A DNA stretch of 30,048 nt from positions 1 to 30,048 of IMG/VR virus record IMGVR_UViG_3300025312_000245; one strand, given 5' to 3'. The notes beneath the pieces were generated by a model. That model had not been told where the DNA came from. It was given only the letters and a program-made list of their open reading frames with translations, and did no database searches. Position numbers and translations under genes: made by a program. Shown piece by piece: positions 1 through 30,048 of the stretch. Source of the DNA: a virus. Positions within the stretch are counted from its first letter, which is position 1, and each line of letters starts with the position of its first letter.

Positions 1-1
1 C

Positions 2-1599: not shown

Positions 1600-1618
1600 T
1601 TTCTTCGGAGGCAGTGCT

Positions 1619-9394: not shown

Positions 9395-9404
9395 GGAGTA
9401 AATG

Positions 9405-9695: not shown

Positions 9696-9698
9696 GCT

Positions 9699-12600: not shown

Positions 12601-15600
12601 CTTATACCAAATGGACACAGGTGACGACAGCACTGAATGACAGCATCGAGTTTTCTCTGCGGATACGCCTGTTTGCCAAGAAAGCCTACGAGATTACCAA
12701 CACCCTCGACCCCATCGCTCTCGACCGGATGCTGGCGCAAGTGCCGGAGAAGTTGCAGCCTCTTTACAAGCAGATGTGGATAGAAAGTGGGAACAACCCG
12801 GACAAGTTCATGGCTCTTGTGGATTCGTGGGCGGGGGGCGTCGGACAGAAGCCCGGCTGGGCATTGACCATCCCGGAAGAATTGTTGGATACCCCCATCG
12901 GACACACCGCTCAGGACCAGCAGCAGATCCTTGGGGCCATCAATAAAGAGATGCGGGAACTGGTGAGCGCCAAAGCCGCCCGCAAAGAAAGCCTTACTTT
13001 GGAGGACATCGACAATCTTTTCGATGACATCTTGGACAGTTTCCGCAAGCGGTATGAGGAAATCGCCAACTCCCGGGGGCGGCTGGGGGAACTGAGCAAC
13101 GATTTCACAGGGAAGGTCAACATGGACGAACCCTTCCCGGAGAGCGTAATTCCTCCTCCGCCGAGGACAGATGCCGACATTGCCCGGCAACTGGACGAAC
13201 TGCCCCGAGGGGGCATTCCTGAAAATATCGAGGGGGCCGTTGATGAATATATCAACCAAGGCATCATGGATGGGAGGACTCCTGAGCAGCGGGCAAACGT
13301 CGAACTCCGTAGCCAGGCATCCAAGACTCTGGATGACTTTGCTTTTGGGTTGACCCCCAAAGTGCCGGAGGGGTGGGAGTTCCCGAGGGCTCTTGCCGTC
13401 CAACAATACCTGGGGGATTACAGCAAGAACATCGACGAGAACTATCGCTTTGTTCAAGACTTGGTTTATCGTTATGTGAATCCAGAACAATACAAGTCCG
13501 GCTCTCAAGAATGGCGGTTGGCCTGGGATAACTATTTTGATTTCGTAGACTCCATCAAGACCAAGGAGATCTCCATCTTCAATTCGCTTCTTGATGCCGC
13601 TCGGACGGGGGACTTCGAGAGCCTGCCCAAGCCAATGACGGTCAAAGAGTATCTGGCTGAGATGGGAATTACTTACGAGCAGGCCCAAACCAAGGTGGGA
13701 TGGAAGATTACTATTGAGGCCCCCTGGGGGAAAGTGACCAAGACGAGTTGGAAAGCCCGGGGATGGTTGCTCGAACCCTACAAGAACGTAGGCATCACCC
13801 TGATTGACGATCTGGAAAATGCTGTCCTCGTGCGGCGAGTCGAAGATATACAGAAGTATGCCGAAGAAATCGCCGCCGGGATGTCACCGGAGGCGGCCTA
13901 CTTTGGCGGAAAGCTACCAACCTCTGAGGCGCTGACGAAGAAATTTGGAGATTACGAACCTTTGTCTTGGGAAGTTGAACTCAATAAACAGTGGGATGAT
14001 CTCAGCATCAACAAGCCAGAGCTTCGATTCATATTCAAGGGAGACGATGACCTTTTACCAAACATTCTTCGTCGGATTTCTGAGAAAGGATATGCAACTT
14101 TCGACGAGGTAGCGACCCTATTCGACAACTTGGACGACCCTATGGCGGTGGCGTTGTGGTCATGGATTGATTTTGACGACAGCTGGAAAGGATACCTTCC
14201 TGCATTGGCCGAGCGGTATTCAAAAGAAGCGAAGACGATACAGCAGCAGACGTGGTGGGTGTTGATGAACAAGTATGGGGATAGTGTCACAGGCTACCCG
14301 AAGACTATAGAACTCTACCGAGCAGTGGCAGAGGGGCGTCCGCTACGCGATTGGGACTCTTTTACCACCAGCAAAAGAGTGGCGGAGAAGTTTATGGGTA
14401 AGGCAGCAAACCAACTAAACAATCCAAAACTGGTCAGGGTTGAAGTTCCCATCGAGAACATCTTTGTTTCTTATGACTCCCATGCCGCCTTCCACCGCTT
14501 TGTGGATGAGCAGGAATTTATCATCAAGAACTTGGACAACGTAAAGATTCTTGAGGGGGGAGAAGAAATCCTTACTTTGACTTCCCAGCAAAAATTGGAT
14601 AATCTCTCCACGATGGCGAAGCAGGATATGGATGCCTTCTGGAAGGCGTGGGCGAAAAATAACGAACTGGATTTTCTGTATGGAGAGCCGGCGGGGAGCT
14701 ACGAAAACTTTGCTTCCTACCTGCGAAAAGAAATCCCCCGGGCGACGAAGAAATTCGGTAAGGACTCGGAGATGGTCAGGTTCCTGGAATGGAGGCTGGC
14801 GCAGGCGGAGCAGACGATGGCTGCTACAGCTTCCTTCCTATACCCCGAGGCGATGGGAATGGTCCCCCCGCCGGTCCCGGTATGGGAGATGCCGGAAAGC
14901 GCCGCCACAAGGCTTTTAGCCCAGGAATATCTTGGAACCCACTTCAGGAAAATCGAGCAGGGGCTCGACATCTTCCGCAATGCAACCAAGCAGGCGCTTG
15001 AGAGTGGAGCCTTCTATGATGCCACCAAGTACACCGCCGACGAGATAGCTGACCTGCGACGGCTCGTGCGGGACGGGGCGGTTTGGAAGCAGGAAATCAT
15101 CGACGTTGCCCGCAATGGAGGCGTTAGCCAATTGATGCCGACGATGAGCTTCGAGGGGGCGGCGCCGTTTACCAATCGCACCATGATCGACTACACCGAC
15201 TTCAGCGCCTTCGACGAGGGGATGAGGAACTTCTTCCCCTTTTGGAAATTCTACAAGAACTCCATTCCCTTCTGGATTGAAACGATGGCTTTGCATCCAG
15301 AGATTGCCGCCTTCTATACCAAGTACCTGCGATATACAGACCGGATTGCCTGGTCGGAGGGGGCCATCAACTCCCGGGGCGAGACGCTTCCATCATTGAA
15401 AGGAAAAATACGCATCCCGGGGACAGACATCTGGGTAAATCTCTCCGCCCCGTTCTCCCTGCGCTTTGTTTTCCCGAGGCTGTACCAGCCCTATGAGGAC
15501 CAGGATGAAGAGCAAATGGGACCGTTGGGAAAGACAGTGAAGTGGCTATATGATTTTGGTTCGGAGCGGGGGCTGTCGATTGCTCCCTGGACTGCCGCCC

Positions 15601-17993
15601 TGCTTTATGGGACGGGGGTTTTGAATCAGGCCGAAAATCCGAAGTGGTCAGTGTTCCCTATGGCGCAACTTGTCCCCCCAAACTGGCAGCGCCGCATTGT
15701 CGATTGGCTGAGAGGGTCTACCTTTGGGACTGCGGTTGCCGACTGGATGTGGCCGGATGTGGCATGGAAGGACATGATTGTTGAGCGGGAGTTGTTCCGT
15801 GAACTTACCGAGCGGATTTCGGCCCCCGGACTGACCGACGAAGAGAAATATGAAATTGCCCAGGAATACTGCCGGGCGCTGGGGGGCCAAGCCTGCACCG
15901 CTGAAAATTCCTTGAAAAGTTGGGACATGCAGGCCCGAGAGAACAACAAGCTCTGGTTGGCAGCGAGGGACCGGGTAGAAAAGTCGGATTATTACCTCCG
16001 CACCGTAGGATTCTTTACCGGATTTTACGGGCGGGTATGGACGGACGCCGATGCCGAACTCATACAAATTCGCAACGAAATCAACCAAATGAAGGATGCC
16101 GTCGAGAACCAGCTCCTCGCTGCCATGTTCGGGATGGACGATGATGCCTCCAACCGCTATACCTACTACATCGAAAACCGCTACAACACCCCCGAGGGAT
16201 ACGTCAACAATCTCTATCAAGCAACACAGTGGGTAATTTCTCCGACAACGGGAGAGCAACTCTATGGCCCAGACCGCCGGGACCTGATTGCTCAACGCAT
16301 CATGGAAGACTCGATGACAACTGCCTACTACGACTCGGTGAGGCAGCTGGGGGAGCAATTGGATGGATGCCTTGGGAAACTGCCCATTGGAGCGGCGGGA
16401 GGGGCGAAAGGCGGCTGCTACGAGAGATATTTTGAGGGGCGCCTAGAACTCGAAGACACCGATATGTACAAAGCCGCCAACCGCCCCTGGGTGGAAGGAC
16501 TGAAGCCGAGCGAACTCGTCGTCGAACACTATCAGGAAATGTGGTGGTACATGGTGAAGGCGACCAAGCCGAAGTGGAGGGTCGAGGAGGGCGAAGAATA
16601 TGGTGACTGGCAGCAGCGGGTCGCCATCTGGCAAGCAGAGCTTCCGGCGATGGCACAGAGCATGGGGGCGGCTTTCGTGCGGGTTGCCGGCGCAAAGGGC
16701 TGGTTTACCCAGAAATTTACCGAAAAGAATTTGCAGGACATGATCGCCAATACAACGGCAGAGAACTATGCGGCCTGGCAACTGAGCAAGGACCGCCCCT
16801 TCGATGCTATCGACAACGCCTGGGACGACATCTACTACTCGCAGTATTGGGATGCCATCCGGGGCAAGACCGGGGCGGCAAGGGAACTGGCCGAGAGGGA
16901 ATTTTACAAGCAGTGGGAAAGCCCGCCGACCTTCGAGCAGCTCTGGGGCTGGATCGAGCAGAACTATCCGCCTGGGCAGTTTACCAAATCAGACATCTGG
17001 CGGGCCTACAATGGCAGGGATGTCGAGACAGTAGAATCCCGCATCGAGGAAACCAAGTCGGAGTGGGACAAGATGGAGGATGACATCTGGGCGGGGATGA
17101 ACCTGGCAGGGCCGCTGGGGTCGGAGACCTACGACGAACTTATCGACCTGTTTATCCGCTCGGGAGGGGAGCGGTCACAAATCGACTTCTGGTTCATGTC
17201 GGATGGAAACCTGGAAGCCTATGGGGACCCTGAAGATGCCCAAGCCTTCTACGAGAGTTTCATGCTGGCGGTCAATGAGATGCGCCGACTGAACAAAATC
17301 AAGGAACCGACTGATGCCGAGCTGCGAGAGCGGGCGGTTGCCGAGGAATTGAACAGCAAATACAAAGAGCAGATAACCCAGAAATTCGGAGAGAATATCT
17401 ATTGGCTGCTCGGGCTGGTGTATGGGGAGATGAATGCCTCCGAGCGGAACGAGTGGAAGAAGAGCAATACCGAGGATTGGGAGAAGCTGCAAGCCTACTT
17501 TGATTTCAAAGATACTTACTCCGCCGCCAACCCGCTCTGGGCCAGATATTACAACCCCGACTTCGAGGCCGGGGGGACGACCAAGCAGCAGGCCCAGAAG
17601 GTTTACACGAAGTCCAAAGTCAGGCGCAAGGGGCCAAGCCGGAGCGGGAAAGCCGCCCGCCGCTACCTTGGCTCGCTCGGGGGGACCCAACCCGTACACG
17701 TAGAAAGTAAGGCTTTCTTACCCCTTGGGCGCCGGGGCGGGGATATTACCGATTTGCTGACCAAGGGATTGGGGCGGGGTGGATACTCCGAACTACCCCG
17801 ATGGCCCGCAGACCTGAAGGCCGCCGTGGGGGATACGGCCCTAGAGGTCATCGACAATGCACACAAACAGGGGCAGCCCTACCCGATTTCCCTCAAGCAG
17901 CTGATTCTGAAGCTGCGGGGGAGACATCCTGAGTGGCGTGAGTATATTGACCGACTGTTACACGACGAACCTGGATTGACACAATCCATTTAG
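9699..17993 (+). CDS. Giant virion-associated protein with embedded ADP-ribosyltransferase-like domain
   Basis: 2764 residues; GTG 9699 with GGAAGGA at 9686-9692. Residues 1-80 are Pro/Gly/Ser rich. Hydrophobic stretches lie near residues 244-260, 347-380, 573-610 and 853-895, so parts may contact membranes. Residues about 1505-1625 look like an R-S-E ADP-ribosyltransferase: Leu-Tyr-Arg (R1541), Ser-Phe-Thr-Thr-Ser (1554-1558) followed by Val-Ala-Glu-Lys-Phe, and Glu-Gln-Glu (E1604, E1606) as the ExE motif. Near 1845 an aromatic Phe-Phe-Pro-Phe-Trp-Lys-Phe-Tyr motif starts a Trp/Tyr/Pro-rich region. The C terminus (2640 on) is basic and Gly-rich. Giant proteins between portal and capsid genes are often internal or ejected virion proteins or 'polyvalent' proteins. 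Function beyond the ART-like domain is inferred from position. No RNA polymerase motif was found. Confidence 0.85.
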   Translation: MPVPVSPYTGRQPVAGGDRDEKPTTPPPEESVFSGFYEALYGPGSTSPPTAPPGETASPSEYKERIAAALEQSRKSKVESQSTVPDFKIGGRVYLDKETGQLTQEKTKYPAYWDAREKKVTIEPTPIPFLWGMIGSMQTIQEAYKKMFPEATKEGSTVSLWQGLSGPFTPNLEAKQAAYEFVRSGIPGLAPPMAGPPKPGEEAWYEEGEAYPEQYRTPIMGILTPEWATPIVDFWQETIVPAAKSVATAIGWLAVPGIMSLGKANEELEKRGVNFAGALTMAWEATGIPGAITGDVYYIPKEGGETTFEGLEAATPFGGLEEAPKTFWEKAIWGLRWGAEIFIEAEGLSLTTAPIVRLAFATGGVLLNATQWAAGKFFLNSIAFGVEKLGGEEAADKMRAVTDKQKADLDFWWMISGEATKAIIEGEDYEDAWISKMAPEKAAIVEAQNALIPPSPGKLDQLIIDFKAAQKRAEGQAAALRQSARILYTAAENAEQFNRALDLTRQAIELDRLYGWDWLNPYNAWTWQLEGEDQQEKFLRAVAWAELQRGRPLTRYEIVQIRDRFVSAGTELAGEMVFDLLNFVPAKVFDFLLVTPAKALGIVAKEVGLKTPIVGSIMRSVMKSATRSVGYKIERAAIILFNDVAGGAKNSDDLIDRLGRMGDLVDDFNAGKIAEAEMTDGLREITPRLNRTAPVLVKTGKMPALSKIPRVDSFGDWIRTTLASATDGLVKAYMDDIYENAYRARGLRGMGNTAKVFADAMAEAAAKAGKKAKLEDIVALLDPEIKKQARKIASSQVSDPKLLARGFGQSFREAYWEANRAWTGSKLLKGQILGELGAKVPWTRGAINATTYLTDLIFRAWVSAVLTTRPGWVMFNYIDSAARFVIMGGSLLDDLATTTAGLIDNGFGIDPNFLGIRLGLGDEKWSEIAEQIARGEGPKVYNWLTAPVAGTIQRIGKLFGQDWLPGVAYTKWTQVTTALNDSIEFSLRIRLFAKKAYEITNTLDPIALDRMLAQVPEKLQPLYKQMWIESGNNPDKFMALVDSWAGGVGQKPGWALTIPEELLDTPIGHTAQDQQQILGAINKEMRELVSAKAARKESLTLEDIDNLFDDILDSFRKRYEEIANSRGRLGELSNDFTGKVNMDEPFPESVIPPPPRTDADIARQLDELPRGGIPENIEGAVDEYINQGIMDGRTPEQRANVELRSQASKTLDDFAFGLTPKVPEGWEFPRALAVQQYLGDYSKNIDENYRFVQDLVYRYVNPEQYKSGSQEWRLAWDNYFDFVDSIKTKEISIFNSLLDAARTGDFESLPKPMTVKEYLAEMGITYEQAQTKVGWKITIEAPWGKVTKTSWKARGWLLEPYKNVGITLIDDLENAVLVRRVEDIQKYAEEIAAGMSPEAAYFGGKLPTSEALTKKFGDYEPLSWEVELNKQWDDLSINKPELRFIFKGDDDLLPNILRRISEKGYATFDEVATLFDNLDDPMAVALWSWIDFDDSWKGYLPALAERYSKEAKTIQQQTWWVLMNKYGDSVTGYPKTIELYRAVAEGRPLRDWDSFTTSKRVAEKFMGKAANQLNNPKLVRVEVPIENIFVSYDSHAAFHRFVDEQEFIIKNLDNVKILEGGEEILTLTSQQKLDNLSTMAKQDMDAFWKAWAKNNELDFLYGEPAGSYENFASYLRKEIPRATKKFGKDSEMVRFLEWRLAQAEQTMAATASFLYPEAMGMVPPPVPVWEMPESAATRLLAQEYLGTHFRKIEQGLDIFRNATKQALESGAFYDATKYTADEIADLRRLVRDGAVWKQEIIDVARNGGVSQLMPTMSFEGAAPFTNRTMIDYTDFSAFDEGMRNFFPFWKFYKNSIPFWIETMALHPEIAAFYTKYLRYTDRIAWSEGAINSRGETLPSLKGKIRIPGTDIWVNLSAPFSLRFVFPRLYQPYEDQDEEQMGPLGKTVKWLYDFGSERGLSIAPWTAALLYGTGVLNQAENPKWSVFPMAQLVPPNWQRRIVDWLRGSTFGTAVADWMWPDVAWKDMIVERELFRELTERISAPGLTDEEKYEIAQEYCRALGGQACTAENSLKSWDMQARENNKLWLAARDRVEKSDYYLRTVGFFTGFYGRVWTDADAELIQIRNEINQMKDAVENQLLAAMFGMDDDASNRYTYYIENRYNTPEGYVNNLYQATQWVISPTTGEQLYGPDRRDLIAQRIMEDSMTTAYYDSVRQLGEQLDGCLGKLPIGAAGGAKGGCYERYFEGRLELEDTDMYKAANRPWVEGLKPSELVVEHYQEMWWYMVKATKPKWRVEEGEEYGDWQQRVAIWQAELPAMAQSMGAAFVRVAGAKGWFTQKFTEKNLQDMIANTTAENYAAWQLSKDRPFDAIDNAWDDIYYSQYWDAIRGKTGAARELAEREFYKQWESPPTFEQLWGWIEQNYPPGQFTKSDIWRAYNGRDVETVESRIEETKSEWDKMEDDIWAGMNLAGPLGSETYDELIDLFIRSGGERSQIDFWFMSDGNLEAYGDPEDAQAFYESFMLAVNEMRRLNKIKEPTDAELRERAVAEELNSKYKEQITQKFGENIYWLLGLVYGEMNASERNEWKKSNTEDWEKLQAYFDFKDTYSAANPLWARYYNPDFEAGGTTKQQAQKVYTKSKVRRKGPSRSGKAARRYLGSLGGTQPVHVESKAFLPLGRRGGDITDLLTKGLGRGGYSELPRWPADLKAAVGDTALEVIDNAHKQGQPYPISLKQLILKLRGRHPEWREYIDRLLHDEPGLTQSI

Positions 17994-18004
17994 TATGATA
18001 GAGT
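17976..18004 (+). promoter_or_regulatory. Possible sigma70-like promoter for the capsid operon
   Basis: A perfect -35 box TTGACA at 17976-17981, inside the last codons of the giant gene, is followed after 17 bases by TAGAGT (17999-18004), a 4-of-6 match to the -10 box. A better -10 sequence, TATGAT (17994-17999), lies too close (12 bases). The position, just before the scaffold and major capsid genes that need high expression, favours a promoter, but the -10 is weak. Confidence 0.35.
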
Positions 18005-20396: not shown

Positions 20397-21176
20397 ATGT
20401 CTGAACGGGATCTGGTTCGTGAGCAAGAAGTTTTGAGTTCCCAGGTTCGGCTGGACGGGAAGGGGGAAGACCCCGCCGTGGCCGCCTTGCTGTCCCCCGA
20501 GTTCGAGACCATGAGCAATACCGAGGCGTTGAATGTTGCCCTGGCGCTCCAACAGCTCGTGCGGGGGGTCAACTCCCTTTTAGACAACGATAAGATCATG
20601 GGGGAAGAAATCTCCAAACTGAAAGCCCGCATGGATGCTCAGGACCGGGACGCAAGGCTCTGGGAAGAAGACCGCAAGAAATTCCTGGAGATGGCAAACG
20701 AGAAAATGGAACGAACCCGGGCGGCCAATCCGGTAGAAGATAAAGAGAAGCTGCGGGTCCTTACCGCCAACAAAGTTGGACAGGCCGCCAAGCTCGCCGC
20801 CGCCAATCAAGCCATGGTCGCAGAGAAGATCAAGAACGAACCCAAAGTTACTTTGATGTGGCCGGGCAAATCCGAACAGGTGCGGGGGCAGGGAGGCACA
20901 ACTCAGTTTGTGCAGCGGCCCATCGTAGTGCGTATTGGTAACTTGGAATATGGGGGCAGATTCCGCCCCGGCGAGATGGTCAGCGTCCCCCAAAGCATCG
21001 CTACTCGAATCGAACAGCATCTTCGTAACGAGGCAGAGCAGGCCGAACGCAACGCCCTGATGGATGCCAGCCCCGGCAAAGCCAAGGAAGACACCATCAT
21101 CGCCGCCAAATGGCATGAAATCAACAGCCGCTACGGATCCAATTCTCAGGAGGTCTTTCCAATTGCCTCCCGCTAA
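20397..21176 (+). CDS. Coiled-coil virion-module protein, unknown
   Basis: 259 residues; ATG 20397 with TGGAG at 20387-20391, just after the hairpin. An acidic N terminus is followed by a long charged helical stretch (about residues 48-112, Glu/Lys/Arg/Met rich), an Ala-rich helix, and then a compact domain from about 150 with Pro-Ile-Val-Val-Arg-Ile-Gly-Asn-Leu-Glu-Tyr-Gly-Gly-Arg-Phe, Arg-Pro-Gly-Glu-Met-Val-Ser-Val-Pro and a closing amphipathic helix. The strand-Arg-Pro-Gly-strand-Val-Pro pattern is common in small phage head or joining proteins. No specific family is recognised; a structural role is inferred from position. Confidence 0.7.
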   Translation: MSERDLVREQEVLSSQVRLDGKGEDPAVAALLSPEFETMSNTEALNVALALQQLVRGVNSLLDNDKIMGEEISKLKARMDAQDRDARLWEEDRKKFLEMANEKMERTRAANPVEDKEKLRVLTANKVGQAAKLAAANQAMVAEKIKNEPKVTLMWPGKSEQVRGQGGTTQFVQRPIVVRIGNLEYGGRFRPGEMVSVPQSIATRIEQHLRNEAEQAERNALMDASPGKAKEDTIIAAKWHEINSRYGSNSQEVFPIASR

Positions 21177-21185
21177 GGATAGATT

Positions 21186-21746
21186 ATGACCAGCACAATT
21201 CAACGAAAACACCTTCGCAGGCTCCGGGCCGCCCCACTGGATTATGGGGAATCCTTTCATGCTATTCTGGATCTCTCCGGCATTGCTGCGGATACACCCT
21301 ATCTTATCCCCCTCAACGACTCCAACATGCCGCACGTGGCGGCGCTGAATACTGCCTTTCTTCTGAAATCCCTGAACATCCAGGCGGAGGTCGAGAGTTC
21401 GGGGGTTTACGACATTCTCTTTGGCGTCATTACCGAGAACGACCCGACTGACGGCTCGGTAGACTGGTTTGCCCGCTTCCAGATGGAAACCAGCGGAGGG
21501 AACGTACTCTCCTTCGAGAGAACCTGGCCGGACGGATTCAACCTTGAAATTTCTGGGGGATCGCCGGTGTGGTTTCGGACCAACTCCAGAGACCAGGCCA
21601 ACACCGATTACCAAGACGACGCCTACATAACAACCCCCTTCGGCTCGGCCCTGCCCGACGTGGGGGACGTTATCATGCGGGTTGAGGAAGTCAGCGGCTC
21701 CGGCACGATAGACCTGTTCGCAGAACTCGAATACGATACCCTGTAG
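21186..21746 (+). CDS. Beta-rich virion protein, unknown
   Basis: 186 residues; ATG 21186 with AAGGATA just upstream. The sequence is basic for the first 17 residues (Gln-Arg-Lys-His-Leu-Arg-Arg-Leu-Arg), then a string of predicted beta strands (Ser-Phe-His-Ala-Ile-Leu-Asp-Leu; Phe-Leu-Leu-Lys-Ser-Leu-Asn-Ile-Gln-Ala-Glu-Val; Tyr-Asp-Ile-Leu-Phe-Gly-Val-Ile) and ends with Thr-Ile-Asp-Leu-Phe-Ala-Glu-Leu-Glu-Tyr. This is a jelly-roll-like profile, similar in style to the decoration protein at 19885. It might be a second surface or collar protein. No family is recognised. Confidence 0.68.
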   Translation: MTSTIQRKHLRRLRAAPLDYGESFHAILDLSGIAADTPYLIPLNDSNMPHVAALNTAFLLKSLNIQAEVESSGVYDILFGVITENDPTDGSVDWFARFQMETSGGNVLSFERTWPDGFNLEISGGSPVWFRTNSRDQANTDYQDDAYITTPFGSALPDVGDVIMRVEEVSGSGTIDLFAELEYDTL

Positions 21747-21754
21747 GAGGGCTC

Positions 21755-23089
21755 ATGGCTCTCCCCTGGTCATTGCTTATTTCATCCCGCCGCCGGCGGA
21801 GGAGATTTATCTCATCCTCATCTCCCCGTCGGCGTCTCGTTGGCGCCGTTACTCTATTCCAAGACCTGTTTACCGATACGGATGAGGTCTCTCTCGACGC
21901 ACATACTCCTGATGTAGATACGTTGGGTGGGGGGTGGACAGAGAGGGCTGGAAACTGGAAGATCAATAACAATGAAGCGGCCCTGGCCGCCCAACAATCT
22001 GCGGCGGTGGCGACGGTGGGGGTTGGACAAGCCGACGTAACTATTGCCCTTTCTACAAAAAACAACTATGAATCCGGCAATCCGGGACTGACCGACCTCG
22101 TAGTCTTTTGGGAACTAGACGACCTGACCGACAGCCACGGGGCGAATGACCTGACCAATGTCAACGGCGTCACCTTCGTGGCAGGGAAGGTGGGAAACGC
22201 GGCGGATTTTGAGTTTGATAGCGTGCAAAGGTTGAGCATTATAGACAACGCCGACCTGAGCATTGGTGACGAGGATTTCTACTGGGGAGGATGGATAAAA
22301 CCCGAATCTGCGGCTACAGCCTTTCGGGGAATATTCTCAAAAGATGGGGGGGCTGGGTTGCGCGAATACTCATTGTCCTTCGGCGAGACCGGCGGGGTAA
22401 ACCGGGTTGCGGCTTTCATCAGCGCAAATGGTTCAACCGGCACAAACTTGATTTACACGAATTTGGCGCTAGCCCTGGCTACGTTTTACTGGGTCGAAAT
22501 GTGGTACGACTCTGTGGGTGACCTGTGGTATTGCAACGTCAACAATGGGACGGCGATGAGCGCGGCGCACGTCGGGGGAAGCAATGACGGCGGCACCGCG
22601 TTTGAAATAGGGAGATTTTTTGGAGCCAATACCCGCTGCTTCGACGGCTTGGTTGACGAGGTTGTTTTCTACAAGCGCGTTCTCACCGCCGACGAGCGCA
22701 CTTGGCTCTACAACGCCGGAGCGGGGCGGGCGTATTCGGAGTTGGCCTCCTCCGACCCGCTGGCAGACACCGGCATCGTTGCCCGCTGGTCAGACAATAA
22801 CAACTACTGGCTGGTTTCCCACAACGTAGAAGACCAGGAATTTCGCATTTGGGAAAAGAACGTCGGGACATACACCAAGCGAGCCTCTGCCGCTGTTGCC
22901 CTGGCCGGAGGAACCTACTACGACATCGAGGCCGAATTAGATGCACAAACGATTACTGCTACCCTCGACGGGGGCAACCAAATTTCCTATGGTTCGGCGG
23001 CGTTGAATGAAACTGAGACCATTCATGGGATGCAGCTTCAACGAGCCAACGCCGATGACCGCAACAATGACTTCTTGGTGACGACATGA
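21755..23089 (+). CDS. Lectin-like virion protein: LamG domain nested in a second concanavalin-type fold
   Basis: 444 residues; ATG 21755 with AGGAGG at 21745-21750. The first 30 residues hold a run of six Arg and a further Arg cluster. A laminin-G-like (LamG_3/concanavalin A-like) domain spans about 113-327. It starts Val-Val-Phe-Trp-Glu-Leu-Asp-Asp and ends with the hallmark Phe-Asp-Gly-Leu-Val-Asp-Glu-Val-Val-Phe-Tyr (from 296), Leu-Thr-Ala-Asp-Glu and Leu-Tyr-Asn-Ala-Gly. Residues 32-108 (Phe-Thr-Asp ... Gly-Gly-Trp-Thr ... Trp-Lys-Ile) and 330-444 (Ile-Val-Ala-Arg-Trp-Ser-Asp-Asn-Asn-Asn-Tyr-Trp ... Tyr-Tyr-Asp-Ile-Glu) look like the two halves of another lectin-type beta sandwich, so LamG seems inserted in it. 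Likely role: sugar binding at the virion surface or tail. Confidence 0.78.
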   Translation: MALPWSLLISSRRRRRRFISSSSPRRRLVGAVTLFQDLFTDTDEVSLDAHTPDVDTLGGGWTERAGNWKINNNEAALAAQQSAAVATVGVGQADVTIALSTKNNYESGNPGLTDLVVFWELDDLTDSHGANDLTNVNGVTFVAGKVGNAADFEFDSVQRLSIIDNADLSIGDEDFYWGGWIKPESAATAFRGIFSKDGGAGLREYSLSFGETGGVNRVAAFISANGSTGTNLIYTNLALALATFYWVEMWYDSVGDLWYCNVNNGTAMSAAHVGGSNDGGTAFEIGRFFGANTRCFDGLVDEVVFYKRVLTADERTWLYNAGAGRAYSELASSDPLADTGIVARWSDNNNYWLVSHNVEDQEFRIWEKNVGTYTKRASAAVALAGGTYYDIEAELDAQTITATLDGGNQISYGSAALNETETIHGMQLQRANADDRNNDFLVTT

Positions 23090-23328
23090 AAAAAGCAAAG
23101 ATACTGCCCCCCTGGCGGCAGGAAATAAAGAAAGGCTTACTTATCAACACCCCCCGCCTCGAACGGGATTACCGCCTGCTGAGGTGGCAGGACGTAACCG
23201 GACAAGATGCCATGAAGTTGCCGCCTGACCCGAACCTGCTGGTCCTGGATGTCCTCGTAGATGACCTTACCTTACAACGCATCGAGAATGACCAAAACTA
23301 TTTCGTATTATGGAGCCGAAATGCCTGA
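23086..23328 (+). CDS. Hypothetical small protein
   Basis: 80 residues; ATG 23086 overlaps the previous stop in ATGA. The N terminus is basic (Lys-Lys-Ala-Lys, Arg-Gln-Glu-Ile-Lys-Lys-Gly), the middle contains Arg-Leu-Glu-Arg-Asp-Tyr-Arg-Leu-Leu-Arg-Trp, and the end is acidic with Leu-Leu-Val-Leu-Asp-Val-Leu-Val-Asp-Asp-Leu. No family is recognised. Coupling to the lectin-like gene and to the next gene (8-base overlap) suggests a tail or assembly accessory. Confidence 0.6.
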   Translation: MKKAKILPPWRQEIKKGLLINTPRLERDYRLLRWQDVTGQDAMKLPPDPNLLVLDVLVDDLTLQRIENDQNYFVLWSRNA

Positions 23329-23596
23329 CCTGCACGATCCAACTCCTTTGGAAGACTTTCTCGCACAGAGCGGGGCGGCGGGGTATAATATCCCTCGGGG
23401 GAGAATGAACATAGAAGTCTCCTCCTACATGAGAACGTGGCTGAAGGACAGGCCGAAGATGAGCATCCGGCGGGCGGCGATCCTCTATCAACCCCGCCCG
23501 ATTGTCCAGGTCTTCAAGAAACCGTTCTATCTTTCGGCTGAATTTACCTGGAAGAAAATCATAGGCCCACTACTCAGGATTGGGAAAAATGTCTGA
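23321..23596 (+). CDS. Hypothetical small protein
   Basis: About 91 residues from ATG 23321, preceded by GGAG at 23312-23315 and lying within the end of the previous gene; the frame is open back to 23261, but that part only overlaps the earlier gene. The protein is basic, with Ser-Ser-Tyr-Met-Arg-Thr-Trp-Leu-Lys-Asp, Arg-Arg-Ala-Ala-Ile-Leu-Tyr-Gln-Pro-Arg and a final aromatic/basic segment. No family is recognised. It overlaps the adaptor gene by 8 bases. Confidence 0.6.
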   Translation: MPDLHDPTPLEDFLAQSGAAGYNIPRGRMNIEVSSYMRTWLKDRPKMSIRRAAILYQPRPIVQVFKKPFYLSAEFTWKKIIGPLLRIGKNV

Positions 23597-24710
23597 ACCT
23601 ACCGCAACCCGTTCCGCCCTCCGCAAAGACATCTGCCGCCGCCTCAACATGAGGTTTTTCCAGCGGTTCGATGAGTATTCGACCCTGACCGGCTCTCCGG
23701 TTGCGGGGACGCCAACCGACTCTGCCTTGGCCGAGGATGCGGATTACTGGAACGGAAGCTGGTACTTCGCCATGACTGGCTCTCCAGCCCTGGACGTGCG
23801 GAAAGTCGATGACTTCGTGGCGGGGGGCAGTCTGACTTTGAACCGTTCTCTTTCTTCCAACCCGGCGGCGGGGGACCGCTACCAGCTCCTCGACTATAAT
23901 CTTTCCCCCCATATGCTCCACGATGCCATCAACAAAGCCATCACAGAGAGCATCCCCTATTTCTTCCAAGTCCGCCTGAGTGAGGATCTCATTCTCCAGG
24001 AAGACACCTTGGAGTACAGCCTATCATCCATCTCCCCAACAGTGTGGAAGATCAAGCAGGTGTGGTTGGAGCAGGCCCAGAGTGTAAAGCGGGGGGTAGT
24101 TGTCTCGACGACCGGGACGATAACGACCATCGACAGTTCGGACACCGGGGACGTAGACAGCAGTTGGCTTCTCTCCATTTATGATGGGACCGGAAAGGGC
24201 CAGCAGCGAGCGGTAACCTCTGTCTCGGGAGCAGCCATTACCCACGCCGTATGGACGACCAATCCCGACACGACTTCCAAGTATGCACTGTGGGACCCAA
24301 CCGAACAGACGGCAGACTGGTACGACCTGCCCGCCCTGCGGGTAGACCGGCGGGAGTGGCCGGATGAAATCCATTTCCCCAATCGCTACGTCTCGGAGTG
24401 GGGGCACAGAATACGAATACAATACTTGGCCCAGCCCCAGGCACTCACGACCGAGGCGGGGACGACCATCGTGCCAACAGAGTACGTCGTGCTGAAGGCG
24501 CTCTCCATTATTTACATGCAGCTTTCCAACTCCAATAGAGCCGACCGGCAGCACCTTCGCCAGCAGGCTACCGACTACGAGGCCATGGCGATTGCCTATG
24601 CCATGAAGAACGCCTTCGCTCAACCCGCCGAGACCTTGTGGATGGAGAGCGACCTTGGGGCGCCGAGGGCAGGATATTCCGAAGACCACAACCCGTTGGG
24701 ATGGGGATAA
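23589..24710 (+). CDS. Head-tail adaptor / tail-tubular-A-like protein
   Basis: 373 residues from ATG 23589, which sits in the previous gene's last codons with AGGA about 10 bases upstream; a TTG at 23580 is also in frame but less likely. Residues 1-30 hold a helix (Thr-Arg-Ser-Ala-Leu-Arg-Lys-Asp-Ile-Cys-Arg-Arg-Leu-Asn). The part around 110-150 (His-Asp-Ala-Ile-Asn-Lys-Ala-Ile-Thr-Glu-Ser-Ile-Pro-Tyr-Phe-Phe) and the late Ala-Leu-Ser-Ile-Ile-Tyr-Met-Gln-Leu helix with a following Tyr-Glu-Ala-Met-Ala helix resemble adaptor proteins of short-tailed phages, which sit below the portal. Between them is a beta-rich insert with Gly-Gln-Gln-Arg. Position just before the nozzle-like gene supports this. 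Confidence 0.68.
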   Translation: MSEPTATRSALRKDICRRLNMRFFQRFDEYSTLTGSPVAGTPTDSALAEDADYWNGSWYFAMTGSPALDVRKVDDFVAGGSLTLNRSLSSNPAAGDRYQLLDYNLSPHMLHDAINKAITESIPYFFQVRLSEDLILQEDTLEYSLSSISPTVWKIKQVWLEQAQSVKRGVVVSTTGTITTIDSSDTGDVDSSWLLSIYDGTGKGQQRAVTSVSGAAITHAVWTTNPDTTSKYALWDPTEQTADWYDLPALRVDRREWPDEIHFPNRYVSEWGHRIRIQYLAQPQALTTEAGTTIVPTEYVVLKALSIIYMQLSNSNRADRQHLRQQATDYEAMAIAYAMKNAFAQPAETLWMESDLGAPRAGYSEDHNPLGWG

Positions 24711-26516
24711 ATGGCGACCGGCGAACAGGGCCACATCCGGCTGAATGGTCAGTATTACAGGATCCTCCTAGATGGCTATCGAGAGGTAGACCTGATCGAC
24801 TTCGCCCCCCGAGCAGCAACCCCCGGCGGGTCGATCATTCATTCCCAGCTTGGCCTCTATCAGCCATTGCTGATGACCGACTGGCGGCATGGGTTTGGTT
24901 TCCAGTGGCACGAAGACGAGGCCGGCTACCTGCGGACCTCGGGCGCCATCGACACCCGCCACCCCGGGATCGTCATGCTTTGGACTGCCCCGGTACAGTC
25001 TCACACCAACAATGCCATCAAGGAGGGATTTACGACCTTCGACGGGGACCTGTATGCCTGGGGCGCCGATGGACTGTGGAAATACAGTAGTGCAACATGG
25101 TCGCAGGTTTACTCCGCCGCCGCAGTCAACTTCGCCCTGGGAACGGGGGACTACCTTTTCTACTGCCCAAACGGAGCGAGAATCAGGAAGATAACGACCG
25201 GCGACGTACACTCGGATGCCGGCCTCAACTCCAATTCGACCGACTACAAGCTCCTGATTATCCACAATGGCTACGTCTACGCCGTCAAGGATGGAACGAG
25301 GGTCGTGTACTATGACAGCAACGATGACCTCTCCCAACTCCATGGCGACCCAACCGACGACACGACCGAAATCTATGTCGGCGGGGCGAACGTGCCTATC
25401 GTCTCGGCTTTCTCTTACGCCGGAAAGCTGTATTTCAACCGGCACGATGGCATGTGGTTATTGGGAGAAGATAACGTCGCCCGGCGCTTCCTCGATTATT
25501 CTTCTGAATCTTCCTCGACCAACTTCCGCAGCGTTGCCATCCACGAGGGAGGCTTCGCTGTCTATCCGGTGCGGGACGTGCTGTACCAATGGAACGGAGT
25601 CAGGCAGGCCGACATTACCCCGCCGTGGCTGACCGACACCTTCCCCTTTACGACCTACGGGCGCTTCGATAACTTTGTAACTGTTGGGAGATTCCTCTTC
25701 CTGACCGCCCGCACCAATGAGACGACCTACACAGAAAGCATCCTGTGTTTCGACGGGGTTGGGTGGCACAAACTCTACGACGTAATTACAGATGGCGATG
25801 GCTCGGTAACAGGAATGGCCTTCGACACGGTAAACAACTACCTCTGGTATCACGTCAACAAGGCCGCCTCGAACACGACCTTCTACGTCCCCTTCCAATC
25901 TCAATCCGAGCTGCCCTACGCCGGCTTCCCGACATCCGGCAACCACTATCTATTTACCTCCCGCATCGACGCCGGGTTCAGGTGGGTACAAAAATCGGCC
26001 CGGGCGCTGGTCGTAGAGGCCAGAAACCTGACTTCCACCCGGAAGATAACCATCGACTATTCGGCGGACGGGGGAGCCTACACTACTTGGGGGGAGGTTA
26101 CTGCCAATGGGATAACGACCCTTGATGCCCCGGGGAACGCCGTCAATTTCTACTATGTAATTTTCCGGGCAAAGATAGAAACCGACACCGCCGCCCAATC
26201 CCCCATTTTGGAGGACATGACCCTGCAATTCATCATGCGCCCGGTCACGGTTCGTGGCTTTTCGATGACCGTCCTCTCCGCCCCGGACATTACCTTCGAT
26301 GGCCGGCCCGACACCCGCACGTCCAAAGAAATCAACGATGACATCTGGACCGCCCGGCAGTCGGTTTCGCCGGTTGCTTACGTCGATCCCTATGGAGTCA
26401 GCTACAATGTCTACGTTTCTTCCTATCAGACCCGGGCAACAGAGCAGCACCTACAGAAGGAAGAGGGCTTCGAAAGCATCGAGAAAGTCATTACGCTGAA
26501 CCTGGTAGAGGTCTAA
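24711..26516 (+). CDS. Tail nozzle / tubular-B-like beta-propeller protein
   Basis: 601 residues; ATG 24711 directly after the adaptor stop. The chain is dominated by repeated beta units of the form Gly-X-Leu-Tyr-X-Trp/Phe: Phe-Asp-Gly-Asp-Leu-Tyr-Ala-Trp-Gly-Ala-Asp-Gly, Ile-His-Asn-Gly-Tyr-Val-Tyr-Ala-Val-Lys-Asp-Gly, Phe-Ser-Tyr-Ala-Gly-Lys-Leu-Tyr-Phe-Asn-Arg-His-Asp-Gly, and Phe-Asp-Gly-Val-Gly-Trp-His-Lys. Such repeats point to a beta-propeller, as found in the nozzle proteins of podoviruses (T7 gp12-like, P22 gp10-like by role). The C-terminal 200 residues are further beta sandwich. Assignment rests on fold style plus location after the adaptor; a tail hub or receptor-binding propeller is the alternative. 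Confidence 0.68.
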   Translation: MATGEQGHIRLNGQYYRILLDGYREVDLIDFAPRAATPGGSIIHSQLGLYQPLLMTDWRHGFGFQWHEDEAGYLRTSGAIDTRHPGIVMLWTAPVQSHTNNAIKEGFTTFDGDLYAWGADGLWKYSSATWSQVYSAAAVNFALGTGDYLFYCPNGARIRKITTGDVHSDAGLNSNSTDYKLLIIHNGYVYAVKDGTRVVYYDSNDDLSQLHGDPTDDTTEIYVGGANVPIVSAFSYAGKLYFNRHDGMWLLGEDNVARRFLDYSSESSSTNFRSVAIHEGGFAVYPVRDVLYQWNGVRQADITPPWLTDTFPFTTYGRFDNFVTVGRFLFLTARTNETTYTESILCFDGVGWHKLYDVITDGDGSVTGMAFDTVNNYLWYHVNKAASNTTFYVPFQSQSELPYAGFPTSGNHYLFTSRIDAGFRWVQKSARALVVEARNLTSTRKITIDYSADGGAYTTWGEVTANGITTLDAPGNAVNFYYVIFRAKIETDTAAQSPILEDMTLQFIMRPVTVRGFSMTVLSAPDITFDGRPDTRTSKEINDDIWTARQSVSPVAYVDPYGVSYNVYVSSYQTRATEQHLQKEEGFESIEKVITLNLVEV

Positions 26517-28042
26517 TGAGAAGGCGCCGCCCTCGCTTTCGCCGCACCCGCTTCCTCCCCATTCGGGAGAAGCGCATACGCATCCCTCAGCCCAAGGACA
26601 GGCCGCTCCAACTGCATCAGGCCAGTTTGGTCAAGAGGGAGGAGGCCCGCCCCGCCGCCGATCATTTCGTTCTGCACCGGCGGGGGCTCAGGAAGACCCA
26701 GGTTGGCATGGACCCGTTGGAGGCCCGGGCGGTTTCTGAGAGCGTAATCAAAGGAACCCTGCCAGAAAGGATATTGTGGAGGTCATTGTTGTTTCCGTTT
26801 CGTTTGAAGCCGGAGGTTGACTTTTCATTTCAATGCCTAGCTGGACACCACCGTGTACTGACAGATGGCCTGAGATGGATTCCTATATCACAGCTAAAAA
26901 AGGGAGACGGGCTTATAGCTTTCTCGGAGGATGGAGGCCCCCGTGGACCGGACGGTAGAAAATACGAGCGGGCAATAGTGATTAGCAATGAACCCGACAT
27001 TGAGCGCACCTTCAAAATAACCCTAAAAAGTGGGGCAGAAATCATTTGTACCCCAGAGCATCCTTGGCTCGCCTTTGGTGATCCCCGAGGAGGAGTACAT
27101 GGACAATTTGTAAAGGGAGCTACCCAAACATGGGTACAAGCGAAGAAGTTGCGCCCCGGGATAGAAATTCCAAAACTGCTCCCAACATGGGAAGCACAAG
27201 ATACCAGACATGCAGGCTACTTGGCAGGGTTCTTTGACGGAGAGGGATCTGTAATTCAGACACACCAACATCGAGATCGAAACCTGCCAGAGGACCAGAG
27301 AAGCTATTATATTTCTCTTACAGCAGCACAAAATCATGGACCCATCCTCCAACATTTTATAAGGAGTGTGGATATTGCTGGTTTTGATTTCAGTATTTAT
27401 GACTATAAAGATAAATACGAAAGATCATACGACAACGGGATGAGAAAAGTAGTTCATCTGAGAATAAGAGGGGGAAGATCAGAAGCACTGAGATTTCTTG
27501 GGACAATTCGCCCAGAAAAGATGAAGCAACTTGATCCCACCAAGCTGGGGGCGGTCACTAAGATAGAGGCAGACTCCATCATTAGTGTCGAGGAAGCGGG
27601 AAGACAGGAGATATATAGACTTGCAACCTCAACAAGAACCTACATCGCCGAGGGGTATGGGATGCACAATTCCTCCTTGGATGGTGGCAGACTCAGCCTT
27701 GGTGGGATTGTGGCCGACTTCCTGTTCCCTTTTATAATGCTGGTTTTCCAGGTCCAAGGCCCGACGCACGACCAGCACCTTCGTAAAAGAAAAGACACCG
27801 AGCAGCGTCTCGTCCTGGAGGCCATGGGCTACCGGGTCATTGATTTTGAACTGGAAGAAATCTTCGACGCCGCCCGGCTGGACAGCAAGCTCCGCCGCAT
27901 CTTTGGCTACGCCGGGGGGCAGTCTTCCGCCTCCGCAACCCACGAGCGGGAGGACGCCGAGGAGATTTCGCCAGAGGACGATTTGATTGCCCAGATGTTT
28001 GCCGACGTGTATGCCATGCAGGAGATGGTTGGTTATGCCTAG
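26516..28042 (+). CDS. PD-(D/E)XK-like (Vsr/DUF559-type) endonuclease interrupted by an intein
   Basis: 508 residues before splicing, 229 after. ATG 26516 shares its A with the previous stop; GAGG lies just upstream. N-extein residues 1-106 start with an Arg cluster and include Leu-Pro-Glu-Arg-Ile-Leu-Trp (E84). C-extein residues 386-508 carry Val-Ala-Asp-Phe (D401), then Phe-Gln-Val-Gln-Gly-Pro-Thr-His (Q412, Q414, H418), Lys-Arg-Lys-Asp-Thr and a closing Gly-Tyr-Arg-Val-Ile-Asp-Phe. The order Glu ... Asp-Phe ... X-Val-X-Gly-X-X-His fits the Vsr/DUF559 branch of PD-(D/E)XK nucleases; here Gln stands where many members have Glu/Asp. Joined exteins read Phe-Gln-Ser-Ser at the junction. It lies among tail genes, so it may be packaged or may act on competitor DNA; its role is not known. 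Confidence 0.75.
   Translation: MRRRRPRFRRTRFLPIREKRIRIPQPKDRPLQLHQASLVKREEARPAADHFVLHRRGLRKTQVGMDPLEARAVSESVIKGTLPERILWRSLLFPFRLKPEVDFSFQCLAGHHRVLTDGLRWIPISQLKKGDGLIAFSEDGGPRGPDGRKYERAIVISNEPDIERTFKITLKSGAEIICTPEHPWLAFGDPRGGVHGQFVKGATQTWVQAKKLRPGIEIPKLLPTWEAQDTRHAGYLAGFFDGEGSVIQTHQHRDRNLPEDQRSYYISLTAAQNHGPILQHFIRSVDIAGFDFSIYDYKDKYERSYDNGMRKVVHLRIRGGRSEALRFLGTIRPEKMKQLDPTKLGAVTKIEADSIISVEEAGRQEIYRLATSTRTYIAEGYGMHNSSLDGGRLSLGGIVADFLFPFIMLVFQVQGPTHDQHLRKRKDTEQRLVLEAMGYRVIDFELEEIFDAARLDSKLRRIFGYAGGQSSASATHEREDAEEISPEDDLIAQMFADVYAMQEMVGYA
26834..27670 (+). mobile_element. Intein with LAGLIDADG homing endonuclease
   Basis: The insert is residues 107-385 (279 aa) of the host protein. It opens with Cys107 in Cys-Leu-Ala-Gly-His-His-Arg-Val-Leu-Thr (block A), has Thr-Pro-Glu-His at 179-182 (block B), Leu-Ala-Gly-Phe-Phe-Asp-Gly-Glu-Gly at 236-244 (LAGLIDADG block C), and ends Thr-Tyr-Ile-Ala-Glu-Gly-Tyr-Gly-Met-His-Asn (blocks F and G), followed by Ser386 as the +1 nucleophile. 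All residues needed for self-splicing are present. The DNA here is visibly richer in A and T (many AGA, ATA and AAA codons) than flanking genes, which fits recent arrival by homing. A second LAGLIDADG motif is not clear, so the nuclease may work as a dimer. Confidence 0.93.
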
Positions 28043-29507
28043 CGACCTGAAAACTCTTGCCGACGAACTAAAAGAACTGCGGCTCTTCCTCGAACAGGTC
28101 TGGAACAACCAGACCGTCTCGGCGGCGCAGGTCATTGTCGTCAATGGCCTCTCGGACATCTCGGAAAGCTTGGGGATGGTGCAGGCGGGCGAGTTCCGGG
28201 TGGGGAACCGCGTTGACCCGGGCAAAGGATTTACCGGCGGGCGGTTTGGATGGCCGGGATTTACTTATGGAAGCACAACTTACTTCTTGGCGGGGGTTTC
28301 CAACGATGTGCTTCAGGTTGGACTCAGTCTTGATGACGGGAAAGTATATGCTGGGGCAGGAGCAGTTTATTTGGATGTCTCCGGTGCAACCTTCGAGGCC
28401 AACGGAACGAATTATATTATCTTTCACGAAAGCGATGACGATGAGGATGTTGGTTACATTACCGGACTTCAAATTGGTGGCTATCATCGAATGGACTTCT
28501 TTGCCCTTGTCCCTGCCGGATCGACGGAGGAAGCCCATGTCCGGTTTGTGGCTACAAATCTTGATGCTGGCCTGGAAGCCACTTTCAATTTGTACACAGA
28601 TGAACCAGCGACCATTGACCTGAGAGGTCTTGCATCTGCTGATCAGAAATTAATCTTCTATGGAGGACTTCAGATTGATGAGGGATACAACATTGACTTC
28701 GGAACCTCCATAGGGACAAAAATAGGAACATCGGCGACCCAGCTTTTGAGTTTGTGGGGAGTAGACCCGGTTGACCAACCATCTGCTTTGACTGCTGCTC
28801 TGACCCAGATTGCCCATTCCGAGCCGGGGACCCCAGACTATACGGTGGCATTTGGAACGGCGGGAGGGCTGTGGGCATTTACATCACAAGACAAAGCCAG
28901 GACGTTTGCAAAGGTAGTCAAAAATCTTCAAGTGCGGGTTGACGAATTGGAAGCCAAGGCCGTGGCTGTGGGGTGGATAGATTCTACCGGAGGAGGGGGA
29001 GGCGGCGGGGGTGGAGGAACTCCTGGAAATACTGGACCGAAGGTGGCTACGGCGGTCGAGACAAGTAGTCCAACATGGACAAGTTGGACAGCGGCCCAAC
29101 TAAATTCGGTCAACAACAGCTATGCAAGTTATGGGGCAACGGACAGTGCAAGCGGCTGGCAGGTTCTAAAAGACTTTGACTTCGGGGTTCCTGGAGGAGC
29201 AACGCCTGTGGGAATCAAGGCACGCTTTTATGCGGTACAGAGCGCAGAATTTTTGGCGGTTGAAGTCAAGCTGTCTTGGGATGGCGGCTCATCTTACACG
29301 TCAGTAAAAACATTCGTTGCCAATGGGAACCCCCAATACTTTGTTCTGGGAGGGCCATCAGATTTGTGGGGACGTGTCTGGGCAGACACGGACTTCAGCA
29401 ATGCCAACTTCCGCATGGCTGTCCGTCGTCTTGGTGGCACAGCCGGAAAATTCGACGGGACGATTTATATTGATTATGCGGAAGTAACTGAATACCATGA
29501 GGTCTAG
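28035..29507 (+). CDS. Tail fibre / receptor-binding protein with Gly10 linker
   Basis: 490 residues from ATG 28035, inside the previous gene's last codons, with AGGAG at 28020-28024. Residues 1-30 form a short amphipathic coiled coil (Leu-Ala-Asp-Glu-Leu-Lys-Glu-Leu-Arg-Leu-Phe-Leu-Glu). Residues about 40-250 are beta rich with Asp/Gly turns. Next comes a segment with Ala-His-Ser-Glu-Pro-Gly-Thr-Pro-Asp-Tyr and a short coiled coil (Val-Val-Lys-Asn-Leu-Gln-Val-Arg-Val-Asp-Glu-Leu-Glu) of a kind common in phage fibres. A run of ten Gly near residue 320 links to a C-terminal beta-sandwich domain (about 335-490) that likely binds the host surface. Its stop overlaps the opposite-strand gene's stop inside CTAG. 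Confidence 0.78.
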   Translation: MPSDLKTLADELKELRLFLEQVWNNQTVSAAQVIVVNGLSDISESLGMVQAGEFRVGNRVDPGKGFTGGRFGWPGFTYGSTTYFLAGVSNDVLQVGLSLDDGKVYAGAGAVYLDVSGATFEANGTNYIIFHESDDDEDVGYITGLQIGGYHRMDFFALVPAGSTEEAHVRFVATNLDAGLEATFNLYTDEPATIDLRGLASADQKLIFYGGLQIDEGYNIDFGTSIGTKIGTSATQLLSLWGVDPVDQPSALTAALTQIAHSEPGTPDYTVAFGTAGGLWAFTSQDKARTFAKVVKNLQVRVDELEAKAVAVGWIDSTGGGGGGGGGGTPGNTGPKVATAVETSSPTWTSWTAAQLNSVNNSYASYGATDSASGWQVLKDFDFGVPGGATPVGIKARFYAVQSAEFLAVEVKLSWDGGSSYTSVKTFVANGNPQYFVLGGPSDLWGRVWADTDFSNANFRMAVRRLGGTAGKFDGTIYIDYAEVTEYHEV

Positions 29508-29761
29508 CGGGCAGAGCAGGTCAGCATCAATTTCAACATCGGGGGTTCGCCCTGTTCATCGAGGTACAATTCGGTGACACAATGAACGTAGGCAAAATCG
29601 TTGTTACAAGCAACCCTCCACCAACCGTCATGGTCATAAACGACGGAGGGGGAGTTGCAAGGACTCTTGATACTATCTCCGGGTTCCATGTAAAAGTAGC
29701 CCCAGAAGGCGGCGATGGAAAACAGGGACAAAACTGCGAGGAGAAGTAAGACTTTCTTCAT
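29504..29761 (-). CDS. Small secreted or membrane-anchored protein (moron candidate)
   Basis: 85 residues on the reverse strand, start ATG at 29761, chosen because AAAGGAA precedes it by about 8 bases on that strand; the frame is open further upstream to 29812, but that extension would run through the promoter. The N terminus is Lys-Lys followed by a 20-residue hydrophobic segment rich in Leu, Val, Ala and Phe (residues 4-24), a signal peptide or anchor. The remaining 60 residues contain four Cys (35, 52, 61, 82), compatible with two disulfides outside the cytoplasm. It is the only reverse-strand gene and has its own strong promoter. Such isolated genes in phages (morons) often change the host surface or block superinfection; that role is an inference. 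Confidence 0.72.
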   Translation of the reverse strand: MKKVLLLLAVLSLFSIAAFWGYFYMEPGDSIKSPCNSPSVVYDHDGWWRVACNNDFAYVHCVTELYLDEQGEPPMLKLMLTCSAR

Positions 29762-29783
29762 GTCAGAGTTCCTTTCTGCTATA

Positions 29784-29812
29784 ATTGTATCGCCCCCCGC
29801 TCTATTTGTCAA
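29784..29812 (-). promoter_or_regulatory. Near-consensus sigma70 promoter for the reverse-strand gene
   Basis: On the reverse strand TTGACA (29812-29807, 6 of 6) and TACAAT (29789-29784, 5 of 6) are separated by exactly 17 bases, the ideal spacing. Transcription would start near 29777, about 16 bases before the start codon's ribosome binding region. This is the best promoter seen in the window. A forward-strand TATAAT at 29780-29785 overlaps it but lacks a good -35. Confidence 0.82.
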
Positions 29813-29824
29813 GGGGCAAACGTG

Positions 29825-29857
29825 AACTGGAAGTAAGACTTAGTATCGCTTCCAGTT
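29825..29857 (+). promoter_or_regulatory. 9-bp perfect inverted repeat before the last forward gene
   Basis: AACTGGAAG (29825-29833) is repeated inverted as CTTCCAGTT (29849-29857), 15 bases apart; the spacer itself contains TAAGACTTA, a smaller palindrome. It lies just upstream of the AAAGGAG site (29861-29867) of the next gene and just upstream, in reverse, of the moron promoter. It could be an operator for a dimeric repressor or an mRNA hairpin. Confidence 0.5.
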
Positions 29858-29872
29858 GCCAAAGGAGAAACC

Positions 29873-30048
29873 ATGAACTATCCAACCCACGGAAGGCTTT
29901 ACCCGGATGTTTTGCTGGCAATGTACAACTATGCCCCCCGCCCGATTGTCCCGGTCGGGACCTATCCGGCGCCGGTCCCCATCGGAACCAGGCCGGTCGG
30001 GGAGCCAAAAGATGACACCCCCCTGAGTGAGGAGTGGGTGAGATTCGT
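29873..30048 (+). CDS. Start of a forward gene, cut by window edge, Pro-rich
   Basis: ATG 29873 follows AAAGGAG at 29861-29867 and the frame is open to the window end (58 full codons). The visible protein is Pro/Tyr/Val rich with Met-Asn-Tyr-Pro-Thr-His-Gly-Arg, Tyr-Pro-Asp-Val-Leu-Leu-Ala-Met-Tyr, Pro-Arg-Pro-Ile-Val-Pro-Val-Gly and later Pro-Leu-Ser-Glu-Glu-Trp-Val-Arg-Phe. No family can be named from this fragment. Confidence 0.6.
   Translation, partial: MNYPTHGRLYPDVLLAMYNYAPRPIVPVGTYPAPVPIGTRPVGEPKDDTPLSEEWVRF

Follow-up and report, generated by a model that had tools for sequence, protein, structure and literature searches.

Which function is served by a small gene that lies directly behind the tail fibre gene of a phage, faces the opposite strand and carries a host-type promoter? 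The question is raised by the right end of a metagenomic phage contig. The window analysed is the whole IMG/VR fragment, 30,048 bases long. The original prediction described the gene as an independent moron of a kind that often acts in the host during lysogeny, under a strong promoter that implies expression separate from that of the late genes. The features of the locus are collected in Table 1.

Table 1. Positions of the locus features and of the scaffold/capsid promoter in the window
Feature	Position	Strand	Remark
Near-consensus sigma70 promoter TTGACA-17-TAGAGT, before scaffold/capsid genes	17976..18004	+	conserved in relatives
Tail fibre/adaptor gene	28035..29507	+	probable role, from position and conserved N-terminal domain
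CTAG common to the stops of the convergent fibre and 85-aa genes	29504..29507
CDS of 85 aa, N-terminal anchor/signal segment, four cysteines (35, 52, 61, 82)	29504..29761	-	ORF, codon use, sequence
Shine-Dalgarno (SD) AAGGAA, upstream of ATG 29761	about 29769..29774	-
Consensus extended -10 TGCTATAAT, facing right	29777..29785	+	overlaps the leftward -10 by two bases
Sigma70-type promoter TTGACA-17-TACAAT	29784..29812	-	sequence match; predicted start near 29777
-35 TTGACA, spacer 17, -10 TACAAT	29812-29807 (-35); 29789-29784 (-10)	-
Inverted repeat AACTGGAAG...CTTCCAGTT	29825..29857		in the rightward gene's leader, upstream of the leftward promoter
Start of next rightward gene, 58 aa visible, SD AAAGGAG	29873..30046	+	ends at contig end

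The 85-residue gene and its predicted product

The predicted 85-residue protein with a signal or anchor segment and four cysteines was confirmed in the ORF from 29761 to 29504. It opens with MKKVLLLLAVLSLFSIAAFWGYFYM, which is followed by approximately 60 residues containing all four cysteines, and the hydrophobic N-terminal segment covers about residues 4-25. Of the span first given for the gene, 29504-29812, the end at 29504 is correct, whereas 29812 is not the gene start and belongs to the -35 hexamer, whose TTG opens a spurious extension of the ORF to 102 aa.

The codon score of the ORF (0.090 per codon) exceeds the maximum of 0.062 among 55 spurious antisense ORFs and lies just above the 5th percentile (0.072) of real-gene windows. 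The overlapping plus-strand frame scores 0.083 and has no SD. By its codon use the ORF is coding but atypical, and the gene is very probably real.

The product is probably exported or membrane-anchored. The single-sequence AlphaFold model contains a confident helix at residues 2-23 and a four-stranded beta part of low confidence (pLDDT below 60); the best Foldseek match to this model (E 1.2) was set aside. The first cysteine is residue 35 and is preceded by KSP. Because it has no lipobox or N-terminal cysteine, the protein is not an outer-membrane lipoprotein. No homologue was found in Pfam, PHROGs, NCBIfam, PADLOC, PDB, phages, plasmids, IMG/VR or GTDB genomes, and Rfam gave no match at the locus.

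Promoters and transcripts at the locus

The near-perfect sigma70 promoter and the good ribosome binding site described originally were both recovered, and their combination is above chance. The leftward promoter is the sole 11/12 match in the 30-kb window, against 0.1 expected per 30 kb, and 22 nt separate it from the ATG at 29761. The window contains two cases of a promoter of at least 10/12 followed by an SD and an ATG-initiated ORF of 80 aa or more (18064 on the plus strand and 29761 on the minus strand), versus 0.12 expected per 30 kb in a second-order Markov simulation. The corresponding expectation for the 365-nt gap is about 0.0015. The second gene with the combination is the scaffold gene, directly before the capsid gene. 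As read from its sequence, the leftward promoter would be used by the host RNA polymerase, and it gives the 85-aa gene a promoter of its own, separate from the flanking operon, as expected of a moron. An exact 12-nt direct repeat, GAAGTAAGACTT, flanks this promoter at 29743-29754 and 29830-29841, with one copy inside the inverted repeat; the two copies may be an operator pair.

On the other strand, TGCTATAAT is a possible divergent promoter for the gene at 29873, for which no homologue was found. The predicted rightward and leftward starts are 15 bp apart and their -10 elements overlap. Bidirectional promoters have been defined by divergent starts 7-25 bp apart (PMC10268837), and the predicted spacing lies inside that range. 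The predicted rightward start is separated from the gene at 29873 by a leader of 81 nt, in which the hairpin of the inverted repeat has a z of -2.0.

No terminator-like site was found on the minus strand leftward of 29504 until about 27811, so that the 85-aa gene does not have the terminator of its own that is expected of a moron. Because no such site is nearby, the leftward transcript would run antisense into the fibre gene.

Host-type promoters and the question of lysogeny

A promoter of at least 10/12 precedes the scaffold gene in 8 of 13 distinct relatives, versus 0.3-1.7% of random 160-mers from the same loci, and the match is 12/12 in two of the relatives, L020 and L038. Host-type promoters therefore appear to drive the structural genes of the phage group. 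Since the same promoter type heads the scaffold/capsid module in the phage itself and in these 8 relatives, promoter strength at 29812 is uninformative on lysogeny, and the step from a strong host-type promoter to expression separate from the late genes is not supported.

A role in lysogeny found no support from the gene content either. Neither a tyrosine integrase nor a serine recombinase was found in the available 35 kb of the phage (window plus extending contig) or in the 13 tail-homologous relatives, which reach up to 66 kb; an HTH_3 domain occurs in one of the 13. Integrases or recombinases were found in five of ten more distant relatives, whose similarity is limited to the fibre domain. 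One such genome (L068) encodes a serine recombinase together with an HTH-like protein at 9021-11167, and another (L073) a tyrosine integrase at 9952-10353, both on the leftward strand after fibre and lysis-type genes. The fibre domain is thus shared by integrating and apparently non-integrating phages. For the phage studied here, whose contig is incomplete, a temperate life is unlikely. The description of the gene as an independent moron stands as regards its own promoter, its probably exported product, its place beside the fibre gene and its sporadic occurrence, and a role in surface change or exclusion is a reasonable proposal; the part concerning lysogeny and separate expression found no support.

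Relatives and the slot behind the fibre gene

Near-identical sequence was found in three contigs of other metagenomes (3300025174, 3300009285, 3300002123). Their matches are confined to portions of positions 1-20,596 and thus end short of the 85-aa gene; one of the three adds 5.25 kb leftward. No second contig covering 20,597-30,048 was found, and the exact-pattern search for a rightward extension of the contig gave no match. The sole genome match, a TerL of 27% identity in a Proteobacteria MAG, was too weak for host assignment.

The relatives were chosen by a shared tail protein (27-50% identity) and by the N-terminal domain of the fibre. In the window this conserved domain is encoded at approximately 28044-28430, the C-terminal part of the gene is variable, and its product probably binds the receptor. 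In most relatives the rightward virion module ends with the fibre, a GH25 endolysin and small membrane proteins. After the lysis genes a leftward arm encodes a PD-(D/E)XK nuclease, a protein that we read from its sequence as RuvC-like, a RecA-like protein, a UDG and a family A DNA polymerase. The observation that the 85-aa gene is the only one against the main direction is correct within the window and is partly an effect of the fragment end, as the relatives carry this leftward arm. A leftward gene is in itself unremarkable in the group; a lone one between the fibre gene and the next rightward gene is odd.

None of the 21 distinct relatives with a readable slot has a leftward gene directly after the fibre. 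A moron is expected to lie between genes that adjoin in relatives or have other genes between them there, and the absence of a leftward gene from these 21 slots agrees with this. Because the slot has no leftward gene in the relatives and no homologue was found anywhere searched, the 85-aa gene is regarded as a sporadic accessory insertion.

When the 623 called genes of the group were filtered for small proteins that combine a single hydrophobic segment at the N-terminus with four or more cysteines behind it, two small exported proteins remained. These are the 85-aa protein and L020:13366-13782 (IMG/VR 3300001580_000001). Both are encoded directly after the homologous fibre genes, and each gene has its own promoter. 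The promoter in L020 is TTGTAA-18-TATAAT with an extended -10 (TG before the -10), in an AT-richer locus of which about 3% of random 120-mers contain an equally good match. The L020 protein has five cysteines after its signal segment, against four in the 85-aa protein. Unlike the 85-aa gene, its gene encodes 138 aa and lies on the strand of the fibre gene, and the two products have no detectable homology. Its predicted structure (mean pLDDT 47) was set aside. Nine further relatives that share the fibre domain and have a readable slot yielded no third case of a small exported cysteine protein encoded directly behind the fibre. The pattern consists of two cases only and was noticed after the fact. 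It is rather improbable that the slot has repeatedly taken up genes for unrelated exported cysteine proteins, each gene with its own promoter and each matched to the fibre beside it; such a slot would be a convergent counterpart of Cor/Llp in phages with GH25 endolysins, with a membrane anchor replacing the lipid.

Other features of the window and of the relatives

The DUF559-type gene at 26516-28042 (plus strand), between two tail genes, contains an insert of approximately 260 residues that is missing in relatives, as indicated by a split tblastn alignment. The insert has weak intein-splicing and LAGLIDADG matches and is probably an intein. A single ORF of 2764 codons occupies 9699-17993 (plus strand), between the portal-side genes and the scaffold gene. 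Upstream of the terminase, a run of glycosyltransferase- and methyltransferase-like genes is present at 1-3716 of the window and at 1404-5620 of L005, which suggests glycan modification by the phage. In L020, the capsid gene (1649-3813) aligns in three separated pieces, as if interrupted by an intron or intein, and a leftward ORF of 277 aa lies at 9011-9844, just before the tail gene.

Discussion

The 85-aa gene belongs to a known kind of accessory gene, and its product is an orphan. Given the place of the gene beside the fibre gene and its absence from relatives that have other fibres, the most likely job for its product is surface exclusion, a role drawn by analogy with Cor and Llp from position, size, export and cysteines. 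That the protein works like Llp, excluding superinfecting phages, is a tentative proposal with less than an even chance. The mechanism would be as follows. A single-gene cassette, acquired sporadically, would be transcribed leftward by the host RNA polymerase from its own sigma70 promoter during infection, with no dependence on read-through from the rightward tail genes. The N-terminal segment would export the product, which would then be anchored or cleaved. The outer part of approximately 60 residues may fold into a small beta domain stabilised by one or two disulfides. On the infected cell, the product would act against the receptor used by the phage itself or against the injection site, and this interference would exclude superinfecting phages and spare the progeny from binding to debris, as Cor and Llp do.

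The Llp protein of T5 has 77 aa; its gene and the receptor-binding gene oad are neighbours on opposite strands, with divergent promoters that overlap. The 85-aa protein is likewise small, probably exported and cysteine-containing, and its gene lies opposite a receptor-binding or fibre neighbour, with a promoter of its own that overlaps a possible divergent one. The llp gene, however, diverges from the 5' side of the receptor-binding protein gene, whereas the 85-aa gene converges on the 3' end of the fibre gene. Llp is a lipoprotein with a lipobox, in contrast to the 85-aa protein, and BLASTP detected no similarity between the two. Llp and the likewise small Rtp45 are exported proteins that contain a disulfide and exert their effect from the periplasm (PMC9586334, PMC12685063). 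In T1, HK022, N15, ES18 and phi80 the cor gene follows the tail fibre cluster directly, and relatives that use other receptors lack it (PMC13164509). The neighbourhood is similar here, as the stop of the 85-aa gene overlaps that of the fibre/adaptor gene, and the Cor proteins of these phages and of mEp167 are also small, exported and encoded directly downstream of the fibre. On the other hand, Cor is an outer-membrane lipoprotein from a three-gene cassette in phages of Gram-negative hosts, whereas the 85-aa protein has no PHROG or Pfam match to the Cor/Llp family. On present evidence it is not a member of that family.

The relatives' endolysins belong to GH25, and GH25 endolysins are common in phages of single-membrane hosts. 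The blocking of an outer-membrane receptor would not apply in a single-membrane host, a point against the proposal.

Other explanations were weighed against surface exclusion. A classic prophage moron, expressed in the lysogen with an effect on the surface or fitness of the host or on its resistance to other phages, is an unlikely description. An antisense position relative to lytic genes, combined with an independent promoter, is characteristic of accessory loci in prophages, such as STMMW_20121 of ST64B (PMC7067206), which the 85-aa gene also resembles in its sporadic occurrence, and integrases are known from half of the more distant relatives. STMMW_20121, however, is transcribed in lysogens (PMC7067206), whereas the phage of the 85-aa gene has no sign of lysogeny: no integrase or resolvase was found in its 35 kb or in the 13 closer relatives, only one of which has an HTH_3 domain, and sigma70 promoters also serve the capsid module. 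The promoter could also serve mainly an RNA, so that the leftward antisense transcript would regulate the fibre gene or act as an exclusion RNA, the ORF being secondary. The minus strand has no terminator-like site near the 3' end of the gene, and the prophage antisense RNA STnc6030 of BTP1 provides a precedent for superinfection exclusion (PMC7067206). Such an RNA is nevertheless quite improbable here: the SD, the ATG, the codon signal and the signal/anchor segment are what a translated gene would have, the gap occupied by the ORF contains no credible plus-strand gene, and Rfam has no match.

Some lysis regulators are small periplasmic proteins that have a disulfide and an N-terminal anchor. 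The 85-aa protein might be an antiholin, a lysis-inhibition sensor or a similar membrane protein for the timing of infection, belonging to a lysis block behind the fibre, and the relatives do encode GH25 endolysins and small membrane proteins only a few genes behind the fibre. Yet the 85-aa gene is on the reverse strand under its own promoter, whereas the relatives' endolysin genes are on the late strand, and its product has no similarity to any lysis family, which leaves a lysis function improbable. To a similar degree, it is doubtful that the element serves above all as a divergent promoter of the rightward genes that follow, with the leftward gene riding along. The overlap of TGCTATAAT with the leftward -10, the spacing of the starts within the 7-25 bp range and the strong SD 81 nt downstream agree with such a promoter, but the leftward -35 matches at 6/6, against 3/6 for TTCATG on the plus strand at 17-bp spacing, and the leftward unit has a directly placed SD and ATG. 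It is very improbable that the last 0.5 kb of the contig was joined from another genome during assembly. Positions 20,597-30,048 are indeed covered by no second contig, and neither the 85-aa gene nor the next gene has a homologue in relatives; against this, the stops of the fibre and 85-aa genes interlock in one CTAG with both frames intact, and base composition has no sharp break.

Two consequences follow for the phage group, which is known here only from metagenomes. Since promoters of the same type stand at the head of the group's capsid operon, a consensus host promoter before a reverse-strand phage gene does not by itself point to expression in the lysogen. If surface exclusion is the true role of the 85-aa protein, an orphan protein family would be added to the few phage proteins that bar competitors from the cell surface.
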